DNA of 60,130 nucleotides from Desulfonatronum sp. Its GTDB lineage: Bacteria; Desulfobacterota; Desulfovibrionia; Desulfovibrionales; Desulfonatronaceae. The position numbers and the translations under genes were made by a program. Below the pieces are notes generated by a model. It saw only the letters and a list, made by a program, of their open reading frames with translations, was not told where the DNA came from and did not search any database. Below are positions 1,935 to 10,911 of this stretch, piece after piece. Location of the stretch: the NCBI GenBank assembly GCA_011049455.1, contig DSBL01000130.1, positions 1 to 60,130 on the forward strand, in the 5' to 3' direction. Position 1 is the first letter of the stretch, and each line of letters starts with the position of its first letter.

Positions 1935-2957
1935 TTATTCCGTCCTCCGTCCTCCTGAAAGACATGCAATCCGGGCCAAGCCTTCCAGTTCCTCGGCCAA
2001 GGCCAGGGCCTCGCCCAGGTCCCGGCCCCAGCAGACCAGGCCGTGGCTTTCCATGAACAGCGCGGGATAGCCCATGGACGCGCGGCCGACCTGGCTGGCC
2101 AGTTCCTTGCTGCCCGGTGCGTTCGCGGGCAGCCGGATCATCTGCTTAATCCAGTGCCGGGCTTCAAACAAGGGCAGGGCCAGAAAATCGCTGTCGGTCC
2201 GGGACAGGCTCAAGGCCAGCAGATGCGGGGGGTGGACATGGACCACGGCCTGGGCCTTGGGCTGGGCAGCGTACACAGCCCGGTGCAAGGCCGCCTCCGT
2301 GGAGGCCCGGCCCGGGCCCAAGGCGCTTCCGGAGGCCAAATCCACGGCCACCAGGTCCCCGGGGCGCAAGCGGCCCTTGGCGCTCCCGGAAACCGTGATG
2401 ATCATTGCCTCCCCCTGGCGCAGGCTCAAATTGCCGTTGGCTCCGCTGAACAGGCCGCGCTGCCAGGCCCGCTCGCCGATCTCTTGGAGCTGCAGGGCCT
2501 CCCGGGCGCTGATGCGCGGGCCCCAGGGCGCGATATGCGGACCGTCCCTGCCCAGCACCGGCTTGATGTCCAAAACTACAGTCTGGTCCAGCACTTCCAA
2601 AGCAAACACGTCCAGAACGCCCGTGTCCGGATTCACCCCCATGATCCGCACGCGATGCAATCCGATGGGATTGGGCCGATGCGGGGATCGCAGGGCAAAA
2701 ACACCCTGCAAAGGATTGTCCGGGTTGCCCTGGGCCCGGCCGCTCAACCGGTCCCTGCGGCCCAAATGCAGCCAAGTCAGAACCTCCACCTCCTGGCCCG
2801 CGGCCAAGCCCCTGAGGGCCGACAAATATTCCGGCACAACCTCGATCCTGGCCATGGGGGCGTCCGCGCCGCCCTGCTTCGGGCAGTCCGCAAGGTTTTT
2901 CAAAGACGAATGCACATGGCCGATGGGCACAAGGACAAGGTCCATAACGCGATCCAT
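1935..2957 (-). CDS. Fusion: TrmO/TsaA-type tRNA methyltransferase + class II aldolase/adducin domain
   Basis: A 340-residue two-domain protein. Residues about 5-140 are a TsaA/TrmO domain, known to methylate N6 of the t6A base at tRNA position 37 with S-adenosylmethionine; the signature SPHRPNPIGLHRVRI is present. Residues about 150-335 are a class II aldolase/adducin domain of the L-fuculose-phosphate aldolase type, with the GANGNLSLR substrate loop, the metal-binding HVHPPH pair and a later ESHGLVCWG histidine. Both halves look complete with no stop or frameshift between them, so the fusion seems genuine. Two starts are possible (2957, or the ATG at 2942). The joint function is unknown; the domain calls are firm. 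Confidence 0.85.
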   Translation of the reverse strand: MDRVMDLVLVPIGHVHSSLKNLADCPKQGGADAPMARIEVVPEYLSALRGLAAGQEVEVLTWLHLGRRDRLSGRAQGNPDNPLQGVFALRSPHRPNPIGLHRVRIMGVNPDTGVLDVFALEVLDQTVVLDIKPVLGRDGPHIAPWGPRISAREALQLQEIGERAWQRGLFSGANGNLSLRQGEAMIITVSGSAKGRLRPGDLVAVDLASGSALGPGRASTEAALHRAVYAAQPKAQAVVHVHPPHLLALSLSRTDSDFLALPLFEARHWIKQMIRLPANAPGSKELASQVGRASMGYPALFMESHGLVCWGRDLGEALALAEELEGLARIACLSGGRRTE

Positions 2958-3114: not shown

Positions 3115-4545
3115 TCAAGCCCGAATGACCCGCTGCAGGTCAACGCCGTATTTGCGCATCCGGTTGAGCACCGTGACCCGGTTGATGCCCAGGATCCTGG
3201 CCGCCTCGGACTTGTTGCCTTTGGCTTGGCGCAGGGCCTGGACAAGCCGGTCCTTCTGATCCCCTCCGTCATTGCTGCTGTCCCGGGAAACGATCTCCCC
3301 GGCCAGGCCCATGGTGATGTTCACGGGCAGATGCTCCGGCTCGATCCGGCCCTCGTCGGCCAGCACAAAGGCGTATTCCAGGGCGCTTTTGAGCTCGCGG
3401 ACATTACCCGGCCAGGGATACTCCATGAACAGCCGCAACGCACCGGGGCTCAGGCCCTTGATGTCCTTCTCGCTCTTGAGGCGCAATCGCCGGATGAAGA
3501 AATCCGCCAGCAGGGGGACGTCCTCCAGGCGTTCGCGCAGGGCAGGCAGATACAGGGGAATGACGTTGATCCGGTAGAACAGGTCCTCCCTGAACCGGCC
3601 CTGGGTGATCAACTGCTGCAGGTTTTTGTTGGTGGCGGTGATGATCCGCACGTCCACGGAAAGCTGCCGGTTGTCCCCGACCCGCTCGAAGGTCTTTGTC
3701 TCCAGCACGCGCAGCAGCTTGACCTGCACGGACATGGGCAGGTCACCGATCTCGTCCAGAAAGATGTCCCCGCCGTGGGCCGCCTCGAAGCGCCCCTGGC
3801 GATGCCGGATTGCGCCGGTGAACGCGCCCTTGACATGGCCGAACAGCTCGCTCTCCAGGAGGGCCTCGTTCAGGGCCGCGCAGTTGAACTGCACGTAAGG
3901 CTCGCCGCTTCTGGGACCCAGTTCGTGGACGGCCCTGGCCGCCAGCTCCTTGCCCGTGCCGGACTCGCCGCAGATAAATATCGGCGCGTCGCTTGGCGCG
4001 GCCTTTTCGATCAGATGGAACATGGCGCGCATCTTCGCAGAACGTCCGACCATGCCGTGGAACATGGTTTGCTCCTCCAGCATCCCCGAAAGCTGCCGCA
4101 GTTCATTGTTCTTGCGGTCCAGTTCGGACAGGTCGGTCATGGTCTCCACGGCGCCCAGGGGCGCGCCGTCCTCCGCGAAAAGCAGGGCAGCGGTCTTCAG
4201 GATGGGCACATAGGCGCCGTCCTTGCGCATCACGTGACACTTGCTGCGCATGCATCCACGCTGCTCAAAAAGCCTGCACCACGCCTGGCGGGCCTCGGAG
4301 CGGACCAGGCGGCAGGCGTCGCACTTGAAAAGCGTGCAGTTGGCGCCGATCAATTCCTCCCGTGAATACCCGCTGAGCTCCTCCAGGGCGCGGTTGACCA
4401 GTTTGATGGTGCCGTTGGGGTCCACCACCAGCAGTCCCTCCTGCATGATTTCCACAATCTCCCGCCAATGGCCTTCCAGCGGAGGATTTTCAAAAAAAGG
4501 GGCTTGGGACCTCTGGGTGGTGGAGGGGTGAAAGCAGATGCTCAT
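3115..4545 (-). CDS. Sigma-54-dependent regulator with cysteine-rich PAS domain
   Basis: A 476-residue one-component enhancer-binding protein. Order: PAS domain (about 25-140); AAA+ sigma-54 activation domain (about 165-395) with Walker A GESGTGKE, an intact GAFTGA loop, Walker B DIFLDEIGDLP and the WPGNVREL motif; Fis-type helix-turn-helix (about 430-472, KGNKSEAARILGINRVTV). It lacks a receiver domain, so the PAS domain is presumably the sensor. The PAS half carries six cysteines in short order (CTLFKCDAC, then WC, GC and KC), which suggests a redox or metal signal; this is inference. The ATG at 4545 has the Shine-Dalgarno TTGGAG. It is divergent from a second PAS/sigma-54 regulator, with repeat A2 in between. 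Confidence 0.9.
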   Translation of the reverse strand: MSICFHPSTTQRSQAPFFENPPLEGHWREIVEIMQEGLLVVDPNGTIKLVNRALEELSGYSREELIGANCTLFKCDACRLVRSEARQAWCRLFEQRGCMRSKCHVMRKDGAYVPILKTAALLFAEDGAPLGAVETMTDLSELDRKNNELRQLSGMLEEQTMFHGMVGRSAKMRAMFHLIEKAAPSDAPIFICGESGTGKELAARAVHELGPRSGEPYVQFNCAALNEALLESELFGHVKGAFTGAIRHRQGRFEAAHGGDIFLDEIGDLPMSVQVKLLRVLETKTFERVGDNRQLSVDVRIITATNKNLQQLITQGRFREDLFYRINVIPLYLPALRERLEDVPLLADFFIRRLRLKSEKDIKGLSPGALRLFMEYPWPGNVRELKSALEYAFVLADEGRIEPEHLPVNITMGLAGEIVSRDSSNDGGDQKDRLVQALRQAKGNKSEAARILGINRVTVLNRMRKYGVDLQRVIRA

Positions 4546-4853: not shown

Positions 4854-4947
4854 TGAAACATGATTAATCAGTTGTCAACAACACCGGACAAGACATCCCA
4901 AAGTAAAAAAAAAATTATTCATGAGAAATCAATGAGGTATAGGTATT

Positions 4948-4976
4948 TTCACGTTGGCATGCCCTGTGCTTATAAT
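4948..4976 (+). promoter_or_regulatory. Candidate promoter of the 5092 regulator (overlapping sigma-70 and sigma-54 motifs)
   Basis: TTCACG (4948-4953), a 17-bp spacer and a perfect TATAAT (4971-4976) make a sigma-70-type promoter about 115 bp before the start codon. The spacer also contains TTGGCATGCCCTGTGCTT (4954-4971), with GG and GC separated by 10 bp as in sigma-54 -24/-12 elements, though the match to TTGC is imperfect. Confidence 0.5.
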
Positions 4977-5091
4977 CGAACAAGGGTGGGCAGCCCACCG
5001 GGCCGAAGTGTGAACGTTTCTCCACGCCCCGACAATCGGGAGATTTTTCATTGAATGAACCCCCCATTCCCCAAAGCAAGCGAGGTGAACA

Positions 5092-6459
5092 ATGGACATG
5101 ACCGATACGCCCACGGACAACGCCATCCTGAACCACCTGGCCGTAGGGGTGTTCACCGTGGACCACGCCTTCAGGATCACCTCCTTCAACAAGAAGGCTT
5201 CGGAAATCACCGGATTCGGCCGGCACAAGGCCCTGGGCCGGCGCTGCTATGAAATTTTCCGGGCGGATACCTGCTCCGGCAACTGCCCGTTGAAACGCGC
5301 CATGGAGAACAATGCGGAAGTCATCAAGCAACGGGTGAAAATCATCAGCCAGAACAACCGGGAAGTCCCGGTGGAAGTGTCCACCTCGGTGCTCAGGGAC
5401 CGGGCCGGCCAGGTTGTCGGCGGGGTGGAAACCCTGTTGGACGACAGCGCCAGGACCCTGTTGGAAAAGCAGATCGAGAGATCCTATACGTTCGAGGACA
5501 TCCTGGGACGTTCCAAGCCCATTCTTGATCTTTTCGAGATCCTCCCGACCATGGCCGCTTCGGACGTCACGGTTCTGGTGCAGGGGGAAACCGGCACGGG
5601 CAAGGGACTCATCGCCCACGCCCTGCACAACACCAGTCCGCGCCGGGAAAAGCCTTTTGTGAAGGTGAATTGCGCGGCCCTGCCCCAGAATCTTTTGGAG
5701 TCGGAACTGTTCGGATATCGCCAGGGCGCGTTCACCGACGCGCGCAAGGACAAGCCCGGCCTGTTCGAAATGGCCGGGGCGGGGACCATTTTTCTCGATG
5801 AAGTCGGGGACTTGCCCATGGCCATGCAGGCAAAACTGCTGCAGGTTCTTGAAGACCGCCAATACTACGCCCTGGGCGCGGTGCACCCTTCGCGGATGCG
5901 GGCCAGAATCCTGGCCTCCACCAACAGGGACCTGGAAGACATGGTCGCGCAAGGCGCCTTTCGCGGCGACCTGTACTATCGGTTGAAGGTGGCCGTTGTG
6001 GAAGCTCCGCCGCTTCGGAACCGGCAGGACGACATCTTGTTGCTGGCCCAGCATTTCCTGCGCCAAGCCGCGGCCCTGGAGGGCAAGCATCTTGCCGGCC
6101 TGGCCCCGGACGCCCTGCAGGTGCTCATGGAACACGCCTGGCCCGGCAATGTTCGCGAACTGAAAAACGTCATGGACTACGCGGCCCTGGTGTGCGACCA
6201 GGGCATGGTCCGCAGGGAGGAACTGCCCCGCTATCTGCTGCATCCGCCCAATTGCTGCCTGGAAGCCTCTCTTACACCGGCCGAAGCAGAGCCGCCCCAA
6301 CGCAATCAGGAACAGGAACGCCTGGCCGCCACCCTGAACGAGCATGGCTGGAATCGCCAGGCCGCGGCCAATTCCCTGGGCGTCAGCCGAACCACCTTGT
6401 GGCGGTTGATGCGCAAGCACAATCTGGGATGCCCCCGGAGCACTGAAACGCTGAGATGA
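5092..6459 (+). CDS. PAS-domain sigma-54-dependent regulator with variant GAFTDA loop
   Basis: A 455-residue one-component enhancer-binding protein. The PAS domain (about 12-120) contains CYEIFRADTCSGNCPLK, a three-cysteine cluster seen in a subset of PAS sensors. The AAA+ domain (about 130-365) has Walker A GETGTGKG, Walker B TIFLDEVGDLP and WPGNVREL. A Fis-type helix-turn-helix is at about 405-447 (NRQAAANSLGVSRTTLWRLM). The sigma-54 contact loop reads GAFTDA instead of GAFTGA, a natural variant whose activation competence is uncertain. The ATG at 5092 follows GAGGTG. The gene runs towards repeat A3 and a terminator. It may control the convergent cytochrome operon, but only proximity suggests this. 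Confidence 0.9.
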   Translation: MDMTDTPTDNAILNHLAVGVFTVDHAFRITSFNKKASEITGFGRHKALGRRCYEIFRADTCSGNCPLKRAMENNAEVIKQRVKIISQNNREVPVEVSTSVLRDRAGQVVGGVETLLDDSARTLLEKQIERSYTFEDILGRSKPILDLFEILPTMAASDVTVLVQGETGTGKGLIAHALHNTSPRREKPFVKVNCAALPQNLLESELFGYRQGAFTDARKDKPGLFEMAGAGTIFLDEVGDLPMAMQAKLLQVLEDRQYYALGAVHPSRMRARILASTNRDLEDMVAQGAFRGDLYYRLKVAVVEAPPLRNRQDDILLLAQHFLRQAAALEGKHLAGLAPDALQVLMEHAWPGNVRELKNVMDYAALVCDQGMVRREELPRYLLHPPNCCLEASLTPAEAEPPQRNQEQERLAATLNEHGWNRQAAANSLGVSRTTLWRLMRKHNLGCPRSTETLR

Positions 6460-6767: not shown

Positions 6768-8840
6768 TTATTGCTCTTCCTCGACAGGCACGAAGCCCAG
6801 GGGCAGGGTTTTGAACCGGCCCCCGTGGATGATCGGATCCCCCTTGTAGCCCAGCTTCTTGAAGTCGATATAGTCTGTTGCGCCGATCAAATCGACCACA
6901 TCGCGGCCCTTGGCGGCCATGGTTTCAAAATCCGTTCCTTTGCGGGCCAACTCCTTGAAGTTCACCTCCTTGTTCTCCTGGTGACAACGCAGACACGCTT
7001 TCTCGTCCTTGAGGCTGTCGTGGCACTGGGCGCAGGACAGGGCGTTTTCCTTGGGCATGATCTCGTGGTTCAGCTTCCAGTACATGTTTGTTTTTACCCA
7101 GGTATATTCCCCGCTGTAGGGGAATCCGGCGGCCTGCATTCCGGCGGTGAAGGACTTCTGCCAATCGAAATGTTTCCAGTAGGCCGTGGGATCGTCCTTG
7201 TCCCTGGGGAACAGATGCGGCACGATCAAATAGCCGTGCTGCGCGTCCGCCATCTGGATCCCGCGCATCACCTTGTAGGGTGCAATGCGTGATTTGGGGT
7301 CATTGAAATAGCCCACCGGTTCAGTCAGGTTGGTCTCTCCCTCCAGGTTCACCGGATCCCCCAGCAGGACGCGCTTGGTCAGGCCGGTGGTCCAGGCGTA
7401 TTCCGGCTTGGCGCTTTCCTTCCAAACAAAGTCGCCCTTTCGCGGATCATACAGCTCAAGACCGTATTTGTCCTTTTCCACCACGCGCTCCTTGTCCCCG
7501 GCCGTGGACCAGTCCCATAACATCTTGGTGGGCTGGCACTTGGAGTACAACGGGGCGTGGCAGGTGGTGCACAGCAGGTGCTCGGTATGCTTGTTCAAAT
7601 GGTAGTCGAGCAGCTGCTGGCCATAATGCGGGCTGGCAGTATGGCAGTCCTCGCAACTGCGGCTGCCCTCGGCCACGGCCACGGAGGAGCTGCGGCCCCA
7701 GATCCGGTGGTTCTGGGTCTTGTGGCAGTCATGGCACTGCATGTCATAGCCGCCCATATGCACGTCGCAGGAGCGGCCGGGATAATACAACTGCGGGGAC
7801 ATGTCCGCGTGCTTCACGCCGTCGCCTCCGCCGCCGGACATGTGGCAGTCGCCGCAGGTCTTGCGGGTGGGCTTGCCCACCTTCTTGGCCACGGCCACCA
7901 GATCCACGGCCGGGTCGGGCATGCCGGCCGCCGTGGGAGTCTTCTTGTAGGTATCCGTGGTGTCGTGACAGACCAAACAGTCGATCCTGGTTTTGTCCGT
8001 GAAATCAAAGGAATCGTCTGACCAGCCGTATCCAGCGTGGCAGGATGTGCAACGAGACTCGTTGCTGCGGATGGATATTCAGAAATTGTTCACGGCATTG
8101 GTGGCCTTGCCGCTCATGACCTCCTTGGTGCGCTCAACGGTGTACGGGGAGGGTCCGCGCCACAGCCAGTGGGCCGAGCGAAGCATGTCCTCACCCTGCT
8201 TTTCATGGCAGCGCAGGCATTCCGCGGTCACGTCCCAGGGTTCGGGATCGGGCCGCAGTTTCACCAGTTCCTCGTGATCCGGCGCATTGCGGCTGTGGCA
8301 GCCCAAACAGTCCACGGGCCCCTTTTTCATCTCCTCGTGGCAGGTCATGCACTGGATGTGGTAGGCGGCCTTCAGACCGATCCGTTCCGGGCGCTCCGGG
8401 TCGAATGCCTTCTGATGGCAGGCGGAGCAGGCCACGGTTTCCGAGAGTTCCGGATCGGTCGGCCGCAGGTGGTGGCATTTGGAGCAGTCGCCGTCCACCA
8501 CGGAGATGTGCTTGCCGTGCATGAACCGGACCGGCTCATAAAAATCCTCGTGCTCGGCCTTGATGATCGGACTGTCCAGAAGCATGAACGTATGCTTCAC
8601 GTCCTGAATGCCGACGCCCTTTTCCAGCAGGGTCTTGCGCCGCTGGTACAGGCTTTCCTCGCGCACCTCGGTGACCAGTTCCGGGACAATGGCGGCCCGT
8701 TCCCGGGCCTTGATCATGTCCTCGGGAACGAACGACTCCTTGGTGGGAATCGGGTCCACGTGTTGGGCCGTGATAGCGGCCAAGGAGGGCAGGGCCAGAA
8801 ACAAGACGACCACGCCCGCCATGACGAATTTTCTGTTCAT
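6768..8840 (-). CDS. Multiheme cytochrome c of the octaheme tetrathionate reductase family, probable selenoprotein (in-frame TGA at 8079-8081)
   Basis: Read through one TGA at codon 254, the frame encodes 690 residues with 13 CxxCH heme motifs: five before the TGA, eight after. Residues 1-22 are an export signal. Four motifs (CSKCH, CSACH, CMTCH, CLGCH) form an N-terminal extension. From CLRCH on, the protein follows the octaheme tetrathionate reductase (OTR) pattern: AECLRCH, AVNNF-X-ISI, SRCTSCHAGYGW, CLVCHDTT, CGDCH followed by GGGGDGVKHAD, then five more motifs. The TGA sits at X, where I recall OTR homologues having cysteine near the catalytic heme. A SECIS-like hairpin follows 13 nt after the TGA. 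The ATG overlaps the nrfD stop by 4 bp. It should act in the periplasm on a sulfur or nitrogen oxyanion; the substrate is unknown. A nonsense mutation is the alternative. Confidence 0.82.
8029..8081 (-). promoter_or_regulatory. Candidate bacterial SECIS element with its UGA codon
   Basis: In the minus-strand mRNA, the UGA (8079-8081) is followed by 13 nt and then a perfect 7-bp stem, GCAACGA/UCGUUGC (8049-8065), with apical loop GUC. The loop starts with G, 20 nt after the UGA. This fits the published bacterial SECIS model: a short apical loop with G in its first two positions, a 4-16-bp stem, and a UGA-to-loop distance of about 16-37 nt. A lower stem is also possible: UAUCCA (8072-8077) pairs with UGGAUA (8029-8034). 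Confidence 0.72.
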
Positions 8841-10006
8841 ACCGAAACCTCCTTGCTGCGAGCTGAGAGCACCGGCAAATACGTAACTGCGACACGATAG
8901 AGGAACATGATCGTGGCTACAAACCCGGCCGTGACGAGCACCTCGGCAAACGAGGGGAAATAGGGCCGATCGGCCAGGGGCGGAGTAAACCCGATCAGGA
9001 AGACATTCACCCGGTTCAGGACGATGCCGCCCACGATCAGCGCCCCGGCCGTGAACAGCCGGGTTCGGGAGCGCCTGGTTTTGGGCGAGAGAATCAACAG
9101 CCAGGGCAGGATCACGCCCAGCCCCACCTCCAGCAGAAAGGCGTTGCTTTGCATGGTGCCGTCCAGCAGATAGACATGGGTGCCGCGGTAGAACATGTCG
9201 CCCAGCTTTACGGCCATGTAGATGCCCAGAAGCAGGATGGTGAACCTGGACAACGGGCCCAAAATGTCCATTTCCGATTCCAGTTTCAGGGATTTGGTGG
9301 CCACGCCGGTCTCAAAGATGACCATGGGGTAGCCCACGGAGATGGCCGACAGCAGAAAGAGCAGGGGCAGCAGCGGCGTGTACCACAGCGGATGCAGCTT
9401 GGTCGGGGCGATGAGCATCAGCCCGCCCAGCCCGGACTGGTGCATGAAGGAAAGGACAACGCCCAGAACAATGAGCACGCTCATGACCTTGGTGCTGATC
9501 CGGCCGAGAAAGCCCAGCAAACGGATCTTCTCGCCCCAGCGCTCGGCCGCGATGGGCACGAACTCCAGCCAGAGCACGGTCAGATAGGTCATCACGCACA
9601 TGGCCACTTCAAACAGCACGGATGTGTAGTTGTGAAAGAACATGGGCTTCCAGATGGCCCAGGGCCGGCCGATGTCCACGAAAATGCCGATCGCCACGAA
9701 GGTGTAGCCCAGGGCAGCGGTGAGCAAAGCCGGCCGGGTCACGGCCTCGTAGCGGTGGCCGCCGAAGATATGGGCCAGGGCCGCGGTGCTGAAGCCCCCG
9801 GCGGCCAGGGCCACGCCGGTGGCCACGTCTATCCCGATCCACAGTCCCCAGGGATAGGCGTCGGTCAGGTTGGTGGCATAGCCCAGCCCGCCGATGAAAC
9901 GGGCCATCAGGGCCACGCCCCCGGCAAGCATGAAACAGACCATGACCATCACGCCCGGGGTCCAGAAGCGTGACTCGGTGGGTCGGGGTTCGGCGTGATG
10001 ACTCAT
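8837..10006 (-). CDS. NrfD/HybB-family integral membrane subunit
   Basis: A 389-residue polytopic protein with about ten hydrophobic helices, of the NrfD/PsrC/HybB family that exchanges electrons with menaquinol in the membrane and docks an FeS subunit. Typical segments include [20 protein letters not shown] near residues 55-75 and an RVNVFLIGF motif near the C-terminus. The start overlaps the upstream ferredoxin gene by 4 bp (ATGA) and the stop overlaps the cytochrome ATG by 4 bp, so the three genes are tightly translationally coupled. With the ferredoxin and cytochrome it resembles the Hmc/Ohc/Hyb-type transmembrane redox complexes of sulfate reducers. The direction of electron flow is not shown by the sequence. 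Confidence 0.92.
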
Positions 10007-10911
10007 TGCGCACCTCCTTGTCCGGCCTGTTTTTGATCACGCCGGTCGTTGTACGACTTGACCCCGTAGAGCATGCCGAACAGGGCGACGGGGGCCCACA
10101 GGTAACTGTACACGGCCTTGTGAATGGATTCGGACAACCGCGGCATGGGAAAGTCCGGAACATCGATGAACCCCAGCTGGTGAAAGGGAACCGGCGAGAC
10201 ATACAGCCAGGACGTGCCGCCGGCCTCCTTTTCGCCGTAGATGTGATCCACGTATCGGCCGGGATCGTTCCGGATGCGCCGCCTCGCCAGCTCCAGAAGC
10301 ATGGAGCGTTTGCCGAAGGTGATCGCTTCCACCGGGCAGATCTCGGCGCAGCCCGGTTTTTTCCCCTCCTCCAGGCGATCAAAGCAGAAGGTGCACTTCA
10401 TCACCTTGGGGGTCACGGTTTTGTGGTATTCATAGGCTGGAATCTGGAAGGGGCAGGCGACCATGCAGTACCGGCAGCCGATGCACTTGGAAACATCATA
10501 ATGCACGGTCCCGTTGTCCTTTTTGCTCAGGGCCCCGGTGATGCAGGCCGAGGCGCAGGCCGGATCCTGGCAGTGCATGCACTGCACCTTGACATGCACG
10601 GGAATGAGTTGATTCTCATCGTCCACCTTGCCGGGAAAATACCGGTTGACCACGGTGTAGGCGCCGGCATCGGGACGCCGTTTGACGTCCAAAAGGCGCA
10701 GGTCGGTGAACAATGTGTCCGGCTCGGGCAGGTCGTTGACATTGTTGCAGGCCTGCTCGCACTTGCGGCATCCCGTGCAGCGGGCCAAATCCACCAGACA
10801 CCCCAGGGGATCATCCGGCGCTTTTGACTCCCAAGCCTGAGCGGGACCAGCGGCTCCGGCCAAGGCAGAGGCGCCCAGGCCGGAAAGAAAGACTCGTCGT
10901 GTCATGTTCAT
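10003..10911 (-). CDS. Tat-exported 4x[4Fe-4S] ferredoxin subunit, HybA-like
   Basis: 302 residues. The N-terminus [20 protein letters not shown] is a twin-arginine signal, placing the protein in the periplasm. Four cysteine clusters follow in the HybA/DmsB order: [35 protein letters not shown]; and the split CTFC...CAEIC. Each binds one [4Fe-4S]. A C-terminal hydrophobic segment (about 270-287, [15 protein letters not shown]) should anchor it in the membrane, as in HybA. It is the first gene of the ferredoxin-nrfD-cytochrome operon, with Shine-Dalgarno AAGGA 8 bp before the ATG at 10911 (a second ATG is at 10905). It wires the NrfD quinone site to the periplasmic cytochrome. Confidence 0.93.

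Follow-up and report, generated by a model that had tools for sequence, protein, structure and literature searches.

A 13-heme cytochrome of the octaheme tetrathionate reductase family in Desulfonatronum with a probable selenocysteine at its active-site position

Results

We analysed a stretch of 60,130 nucleotides from the draft genome of a Desulfonatronum sp. (GenBank assembly GCA_011049455.1, contig DSBL01000130.1, positions 1 to 60,130), referred to here as the window. On its minus strand (8840-6768), 253 codons, a TGA codon (8081-8079) and 436 further codons running to a TAA make up one frame of 690 codons, in which the TGA is the sole internal stop and no frameshift is found. Re-reading the sequence thereby bears out the earlier note on this DNA, which had described two minus-strand frames in the same phase split by a single TGA. 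That note had treated the cytochrome gene alone; the gene actually belongs to an operon of three. The features of the locus are as follows:

6768..8840, minus strand: gene for a predicted selenoprotein, long-form (13-heme) member of the octaheme tetrathionate reductase (OTR) family, codon 254 read as selenocysteine (Sec) (frame, TIGR04315, 1sp3 alignment, CXXCH count)
8079..8081, minus strand: putative Sec-encoding TGA, codon 254, equivalent to Cys64 of Shewanella OTR (TGA or Cys in 196/198 loci; 1sp3 alignment)
8049..8065, minus strand: candidate bacterial SECIS hairpin GCAACGA-GUC-UCGUUGC, starting 14 nt past the UGA, with a 7-bp stem and a 3-nt apical loop (folding, motif, phylum scan)
8037..8051, minus strand: CTSCH motif of OTR heme 2, ten residues past the Sec (1sp3 alignment)
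7812..7814, minus strand: Lys343, equivalent to Lys153 of 1sp3 (1sp3 alignment; invariant in the homologue alignment)
8295..8486, minus strand: four CXXCH motifs (8486-8472, 8429-8415, 8351-8337, 8309-8295) of a c3-like N-terminal domain, which resembles the C-terminal c3-like domain of HmcA
8837..10006, minus strand: NrfD-like (HybB/HmcC-related) membrane subunit (PF03916, 5.7e-24; PRK10881, 327 bits, and HmcC, both under cut-off; synteny)
10003..10911, minus strand: HmcB-like periplasmic iron-sulfur (FeS) subunit with a Tat-like RR N-terminus (HmcB model, under cut-off; synteny)

The joined protein begins with a signal-like stretch and contains 13 CXXCH motifs, five N-terminal and eight C-terminal to the TGA. 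The c3-like domain (residues 119-182) holds four of them and the OTR core (208-607) eight; the thirteenth lies at residue 616. Among the 19 frames in the window in which a TGA that can be read through is flanked on both sides by 150 codons or more, only the OTR frame carries heme motifs. The TIGR04315 profile matches residues 199-609, a region spanning the TGA, with 498.3 bits, above its curated threshold of 375, and phmmer aligns residues 197-608 to the Shewanella OTR (PDB 1sp3) with E = 1e-120. The family named in the earlier note, which had called the protein octaheme-tetrathionate-reductase-like, is thus the right one, and only the heme count has to be changed to that of a 13-heme form. 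AlphaFold models of 20 sequences had a mean pLDDT of 53, with values below 50 in the heme regions.

Counting residues on the phmmer alignment places codon 254 opposite Cys64 of 1sp3, as the earlier note had proposed to check, Lys343 opposite Lys153 and Asp340 opposite Asp150. The core has both its eight CXXCH motifs and the equivalent of the Lys ligand of the active-site heme. Around codon 254 the residues read AVNNF-X-ISIRSNESRCTSCHAGYGW, the context that had been given before as AVNNF-X-ISI. In Shewanella OTR, Cys64 and Lys153 were reportedly described by Mowat and colleagues in 2004 as flanking the active-site heme. We take the CTSCH motif ten residues past codon 254 to bind the catalytic, Lys-ligated heme of OTR, of which Lys153 in 1sp3 is presumably the distal ligand.

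Within the operon, the HmcB-like gene overlaps the NrfD-like gene by 4 nt, and the 3′ end of the latter overlaps the start of the OTR gene, the last of the three, by another 4 nt. The order FeS-NrfD-OTR is kept in those 13-heme relatives that have enough flanking sequence, of both Sec and Cys type, while 8-heme forms generally lie outside this arrangement. This retention suggests a membrane-bound, quinone-linked reductase. None of the three subunits reaches the Hmc equivalog cut-offs (HmcA 79/400, HmcB 349/420, HmcC 280/550 bits), and the complex is therefore regarded as working like the Hmc type rather than filed as Hmc. The operon has the same G+C content as the window. At E 1e-40, none of seven congeners (G024-G030) gave an OTR homologue, which makes the operon patchy within the genus. 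Just downstream lie two PAS/sigma-54 activator genes (5092-6459, plus strand, and 3115-4545, minus strand), one of them convergent, which are candidates for regulators of the operon. A further ORF (1935-2957, minus strand) encodes a TrmO-like tRNA methyltransferase domain fused to a class II aldolase domain.

OTR homologues are present in 110 of 348 genomes of the same order, and more were drawn from 395 genomes across the phylum and from 80 named loci. This order is probably Desulfovibrionales, as the codons of one of its loci (L032) at the site are identical to those of a Pseudodesulfovibrio locus (L144). In the 198 loci in which column 254 is covered, the codon is TGC in 90, TGA in 63, TGT in 43, ACT in one and GCC in one, corresponding to 133 Cys, 63 TGA, one Thr and one Ala; since some loci are duplicated across collections (e.g. 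L083/L166), the count of 63 is slightly inflated. The earlier expectations that the family residue would be cysteine and that relatives would share the TGA both hold in this set. Homologues with neither Cys nor Sec, which the earlier note had regarded as speaking against its reading, are confined to two divergent sequences with Thr or Ala (L082 and L119), and the residue is therefore not absolutely required in the wider family. The TGA-bearing genes fall into about 20 family-level groups and include those of Desulfosarcina cetonica, Desulfosarcina alkanivorans and delta proteobacterium NaphS2. Cys-type homologues with 42-51% identity also occur in Methanosarcinaceae archaea (L164, L165, L167-L169).

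The hairpin downstream of the TGA (8065-8049) folds with -9.2 kcal/mol into 7 bp with a GUC loop, beginning G-U, at 20 nt from the UGA. On every count it lies within the bacterial SECIS model of PMC13188914, which comprises a loop of 3-9 nt with G in one of its first two positions, a stem of 4-16 bp, a distance of 16-37 nt from the UGA and a minimum free energy of at most -7.5 kcal/mol. The Rfam covariance model SECIS_1 (RF00031) gave no match here and likewise none in the control genomes. The motif of this hairpin, termed hairpin A, is GCAACGAG[G/T]CTCGTTGC and is exact in all 38 class-A TGA genes, where synonymous shuffling with each gene's own codon use predicts it in about 0.1%. All of the remaining 25 TGA genes share a different hairpin, hairpin B (C/UUGGUGC-AGGU-GCACCAG/A, at +18), whose basal C-G is replaced by a compensated U-A pair in L083/L166 and which has a G-U wobble in two others. 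Across the hairpin, synonymous positions are frozen in the TGA genes. Among the 135 non-TGA homologues, hairpin A was found once and hairpin B never.

Scanning the whole genomes of the 395-genome draw for a TGA followed by either hairpin returned 4 matches for A and 27 for B, all in OTR genes, and these 31 matches are exactly the 31 TGA-OTR genes of that draw; reversed hairpin patterns, used as a control, had no match in the same 395 genomes. This one-to-one correspondence is the strongest single result of our analysis.

Just past the site, Cys enzymes mostly read SNEPRC or SNWPRC, compared with SNE[A/S]RC in Sec enzymes with hairpin A and SNWC[R/S]C in those with hairpin B. The residue at the variable position seems to be dictated by the hairpin and not by heme binding, and the codons indicate that hairpin A would require Glu, and hairpin B Trp, two residues earlier. 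Moreover, one OTR gene from a Desulfatitalea MAG (L210, ~4935-6212) has TGT at the site together with an intact hairpin A, apparently a recent change from Sec to Cys that left a fossil SECIS.

All four sel genes that the earlier note had proposed to look for are present in the genome: SelA (540 bits), SelB (393 bits, cut-off 242), tRNA-Sec (82 bits, cut-off 47) with anticodon UCA, and SelD (335 bits). The selD gene has an in-frame TGA of its own in the motif SAAGUASK (L068, minus strand, ~position 1525; G000, contig C58), and SelD itself is therefore probably a selenoprotein. selB occurs in 20/20 TGA-OTR genomes of the order sample versus 284/348 genomes overall; because it is so common in the order, this agreement tells little by itself.

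A tree of 177 rows, built without the site and hairpin columns, requires 11 changes between Sec and Cys, at least 8 of these changes being forced by well-supported branches. Hairpin A is shared by the 13-heme clade and a distant clade of 8-heme forms, and hairpin B is found in two other clades; the presence of each hairpin in two distant clades may reflect convergence, loss or exchange. One genome (G478) has two Sec-OTR paralogues, at C93:38692 and C10:107334, which carry different hairpins, B in one and A in the other.

Discussion

Our comparison indicates that the TGA at codon 254 almost certainly encodes Sec. The earlier note had come to the same reading, and the SECIS hairpin extends its case beyond the Cys/TGA exchange and sel genes on which its checks were based. 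An error in sequencing or assembly that conceals a TGC or TGT could be imagined in a draft genome of 164 contigs, where one base change restores the usual Cys codon. However, 62 other loci, spread over many families and independent assemblies, have the same TGA, always accompanied by a matching hairpin, and the gene carries a hairpin that the Cys genes, with one exception in 135, are without. We regard such an error as exceedingly improbable. The same holds for a pseudogene broken by a nonsense mutation: by itself, the first half would amount to a pentaheme fragment of 253 residues, but the frame downstream of the TGA is unbroken, keeps eight heme motifs and shares ~60% identity with distant relatives, and the TGA has been kept across families together with the frozen synonymous positions over the hairpin. 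Two separate genes are effectively excluded along with these two readings.

Somewhat less far-fetched, though still improbable, is that the TGA is mainly regulatory, with programmed termination or leaky readthrough giving two products and the inserted residue being something other than Sec, or Sec only at high selenium. Release factor 2 competes at Sec-UGA codons, and the N-terminal five-heme fragment could perhaps fold by itself. Against this, the strict exchange of Cys and TGA and the presence of a SECIS favour Sec as the inserted residue. Pyrrolysine was rejected because it would call for TAG, whereas the codon is TGA. A changed genetic code in which TGA is generally reassigned was rejected because tRNA-Sec and the SECIS account for the single TGA at hand.

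With codon 254 read as Sec, a mechanism can be proposed. The hairpin would recruit SelB and Sec-tRNA(UCA), yielding one periplasmic 13-heme cytochrome in which Sec254 would replace the conserved catalytic-site Cys (Cys64 in Shewanella), close to the active-site heme on its Lys343/Asp340 side. Its c3-like four-heme domain and the HmcB-like and NrfD-like subunits could then build a membrane-anchored, (mena)quinone-linked complex; that the three proteins form a membrane complex is probable, and its most likely role is that of a periplasmic reductase drawing on quinol and/or cytochrome c3. The quinol pool and/or periplasmic cytochrome c3 would supply the electrons for reducing a small oxidised compound of sulfur (or nitrogen). 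The selenolate could attack this substrate (in tetrathionate, for example, at the central S-S bond), giving a Se-S adduct that would be reduced by the heme. The active-site cysteine of TsdA, proposed to attack tetrathionate (PMC5146829), serves as the model for this step.

The repeated exchange of Cys and Sec at this residue argues for a catalytic nucleophile, a role that we consider rather likely for the Sec. Tetrathionate as the physiological substrate is a more doubtful proposition. Alternatively, the Sec may be present in an enzyme with another direction or substrate, i.e. an oxidase of sulfur compounds feeding the quinone, or a reductase of nitrite, hydroxylamine or selenium oxyanions. 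Shewanella OTR is promiscuous in vitro, reducing nitrite and hydroxylamine as well as tetrathionate (as cited in PMC4911364), and complexes of the Hmc and Nhc type, whose c3-like domain the N-terminal domain resembles, pass electrons from c3 to the quinone (PMC8076601). On the other hand, the OTR core and Lys343 are retained, and we place this alternative somewhat below an even chance. The most far-reaching form of our reading has about that even chance: a selenium-dependent, quinone-linked 13-heme reductase complex with a selenolate beside a Lys-ligated heme, a catalysis new to characterised enzymes, in which two different protein-coding hairpins at the same codon reflect repeated gain (or re-encoding) of Sec. 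The broader explanation, with Sec inserted through a SECIS into a 13-heme OTR that is part of a membrane complex with Se-S chemistry, appears highly probable as a whole; Sec coding, SECIS, active-site position and operon are shown by the sequence, and from there we infer the complex, electron path, substrate and chemistry.

The earlier note had expected an unusual selenoprotein, which is not entirely new. The table of a 2026 review (PMC13188914), the only full-text hit for TIGR04315 among open-licence papers, already has the family among its selenoproteins, flagged 'GenBank annotated', and leaves out motif, position, SECIS, heme count and distribution. Judged against the open-licence literature, the catalytic position, the two SECIS types, the distribution, the repeated Sec/Cys exchange and the 13-heme complex are apparently new. 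In the same literature, we found no paper that settles the role of the conserved OTR cysteine, and the natural pairs of Cys and Sec enzymes are ready material for testing whether it is a nucleophile. The available part of a review of NrfD-containing complexes (PMC8076601) covers Nrf, Qrc, Nhc, Mcc and others, with no FeS-NrfD-OTR complex among them. Our reading would add a heme enzyme with a catalytic-site Sec to the known selenoproteins. Furthermore, gene callers that stop at TGA cut the OTR gene in two and hide a selenoprotein in sulfate reducers. With two hairpins in use, the coding demand of the SECIS appears to set the neighbouring residues, and SNE[A/S]RC and SNWC[R/S]C could serve as a signature for finding more such genes.

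Among known systems, TsdA shares a heme active site with a catalytic cysteine on which a thiosulfonate adduct forms (PMC5146829), but it is a different, di-heme protein whose cysteine ligates the heme, and the analogy is one of mechanism alone. The Desulfovibrio Hmc and Nhc complexes have in common with our operon an HmcB-like FeS subunit, an HmcC/NrfD-like membrane subunit and a c3-like cytochrome domain, whereas their cytochromes are without the OTR core. Geobacter ExtKL, too, is a multiheme c-type cytochrome with a predicted Sec whose annotation is split into two genes (PMC5877670, PMC13188914); it is listed as a family apart (NF040886) and belongs to an ext operon of its own. WP_331457571.1, a 'tetrathionate reductase family octaheme c-type cytochrome', is a GenBank-annotated selenoprotein of the same NCBIfam family (PMC13188914), a likeness by annotation. 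The Shewanella oneidensis OTR (1sp3, TIGR04315) shares the eight-heme core and the pairs Cys64/Sec254, Lys153/Lys343 and Asp150/Asp340, from which the Desulfonatronum protein differs by its predicted Sec in place of Cys, its c3-like tetraheme N-terminus, its thirteenth heme and its operon with FeS and NrfD-like subunits.
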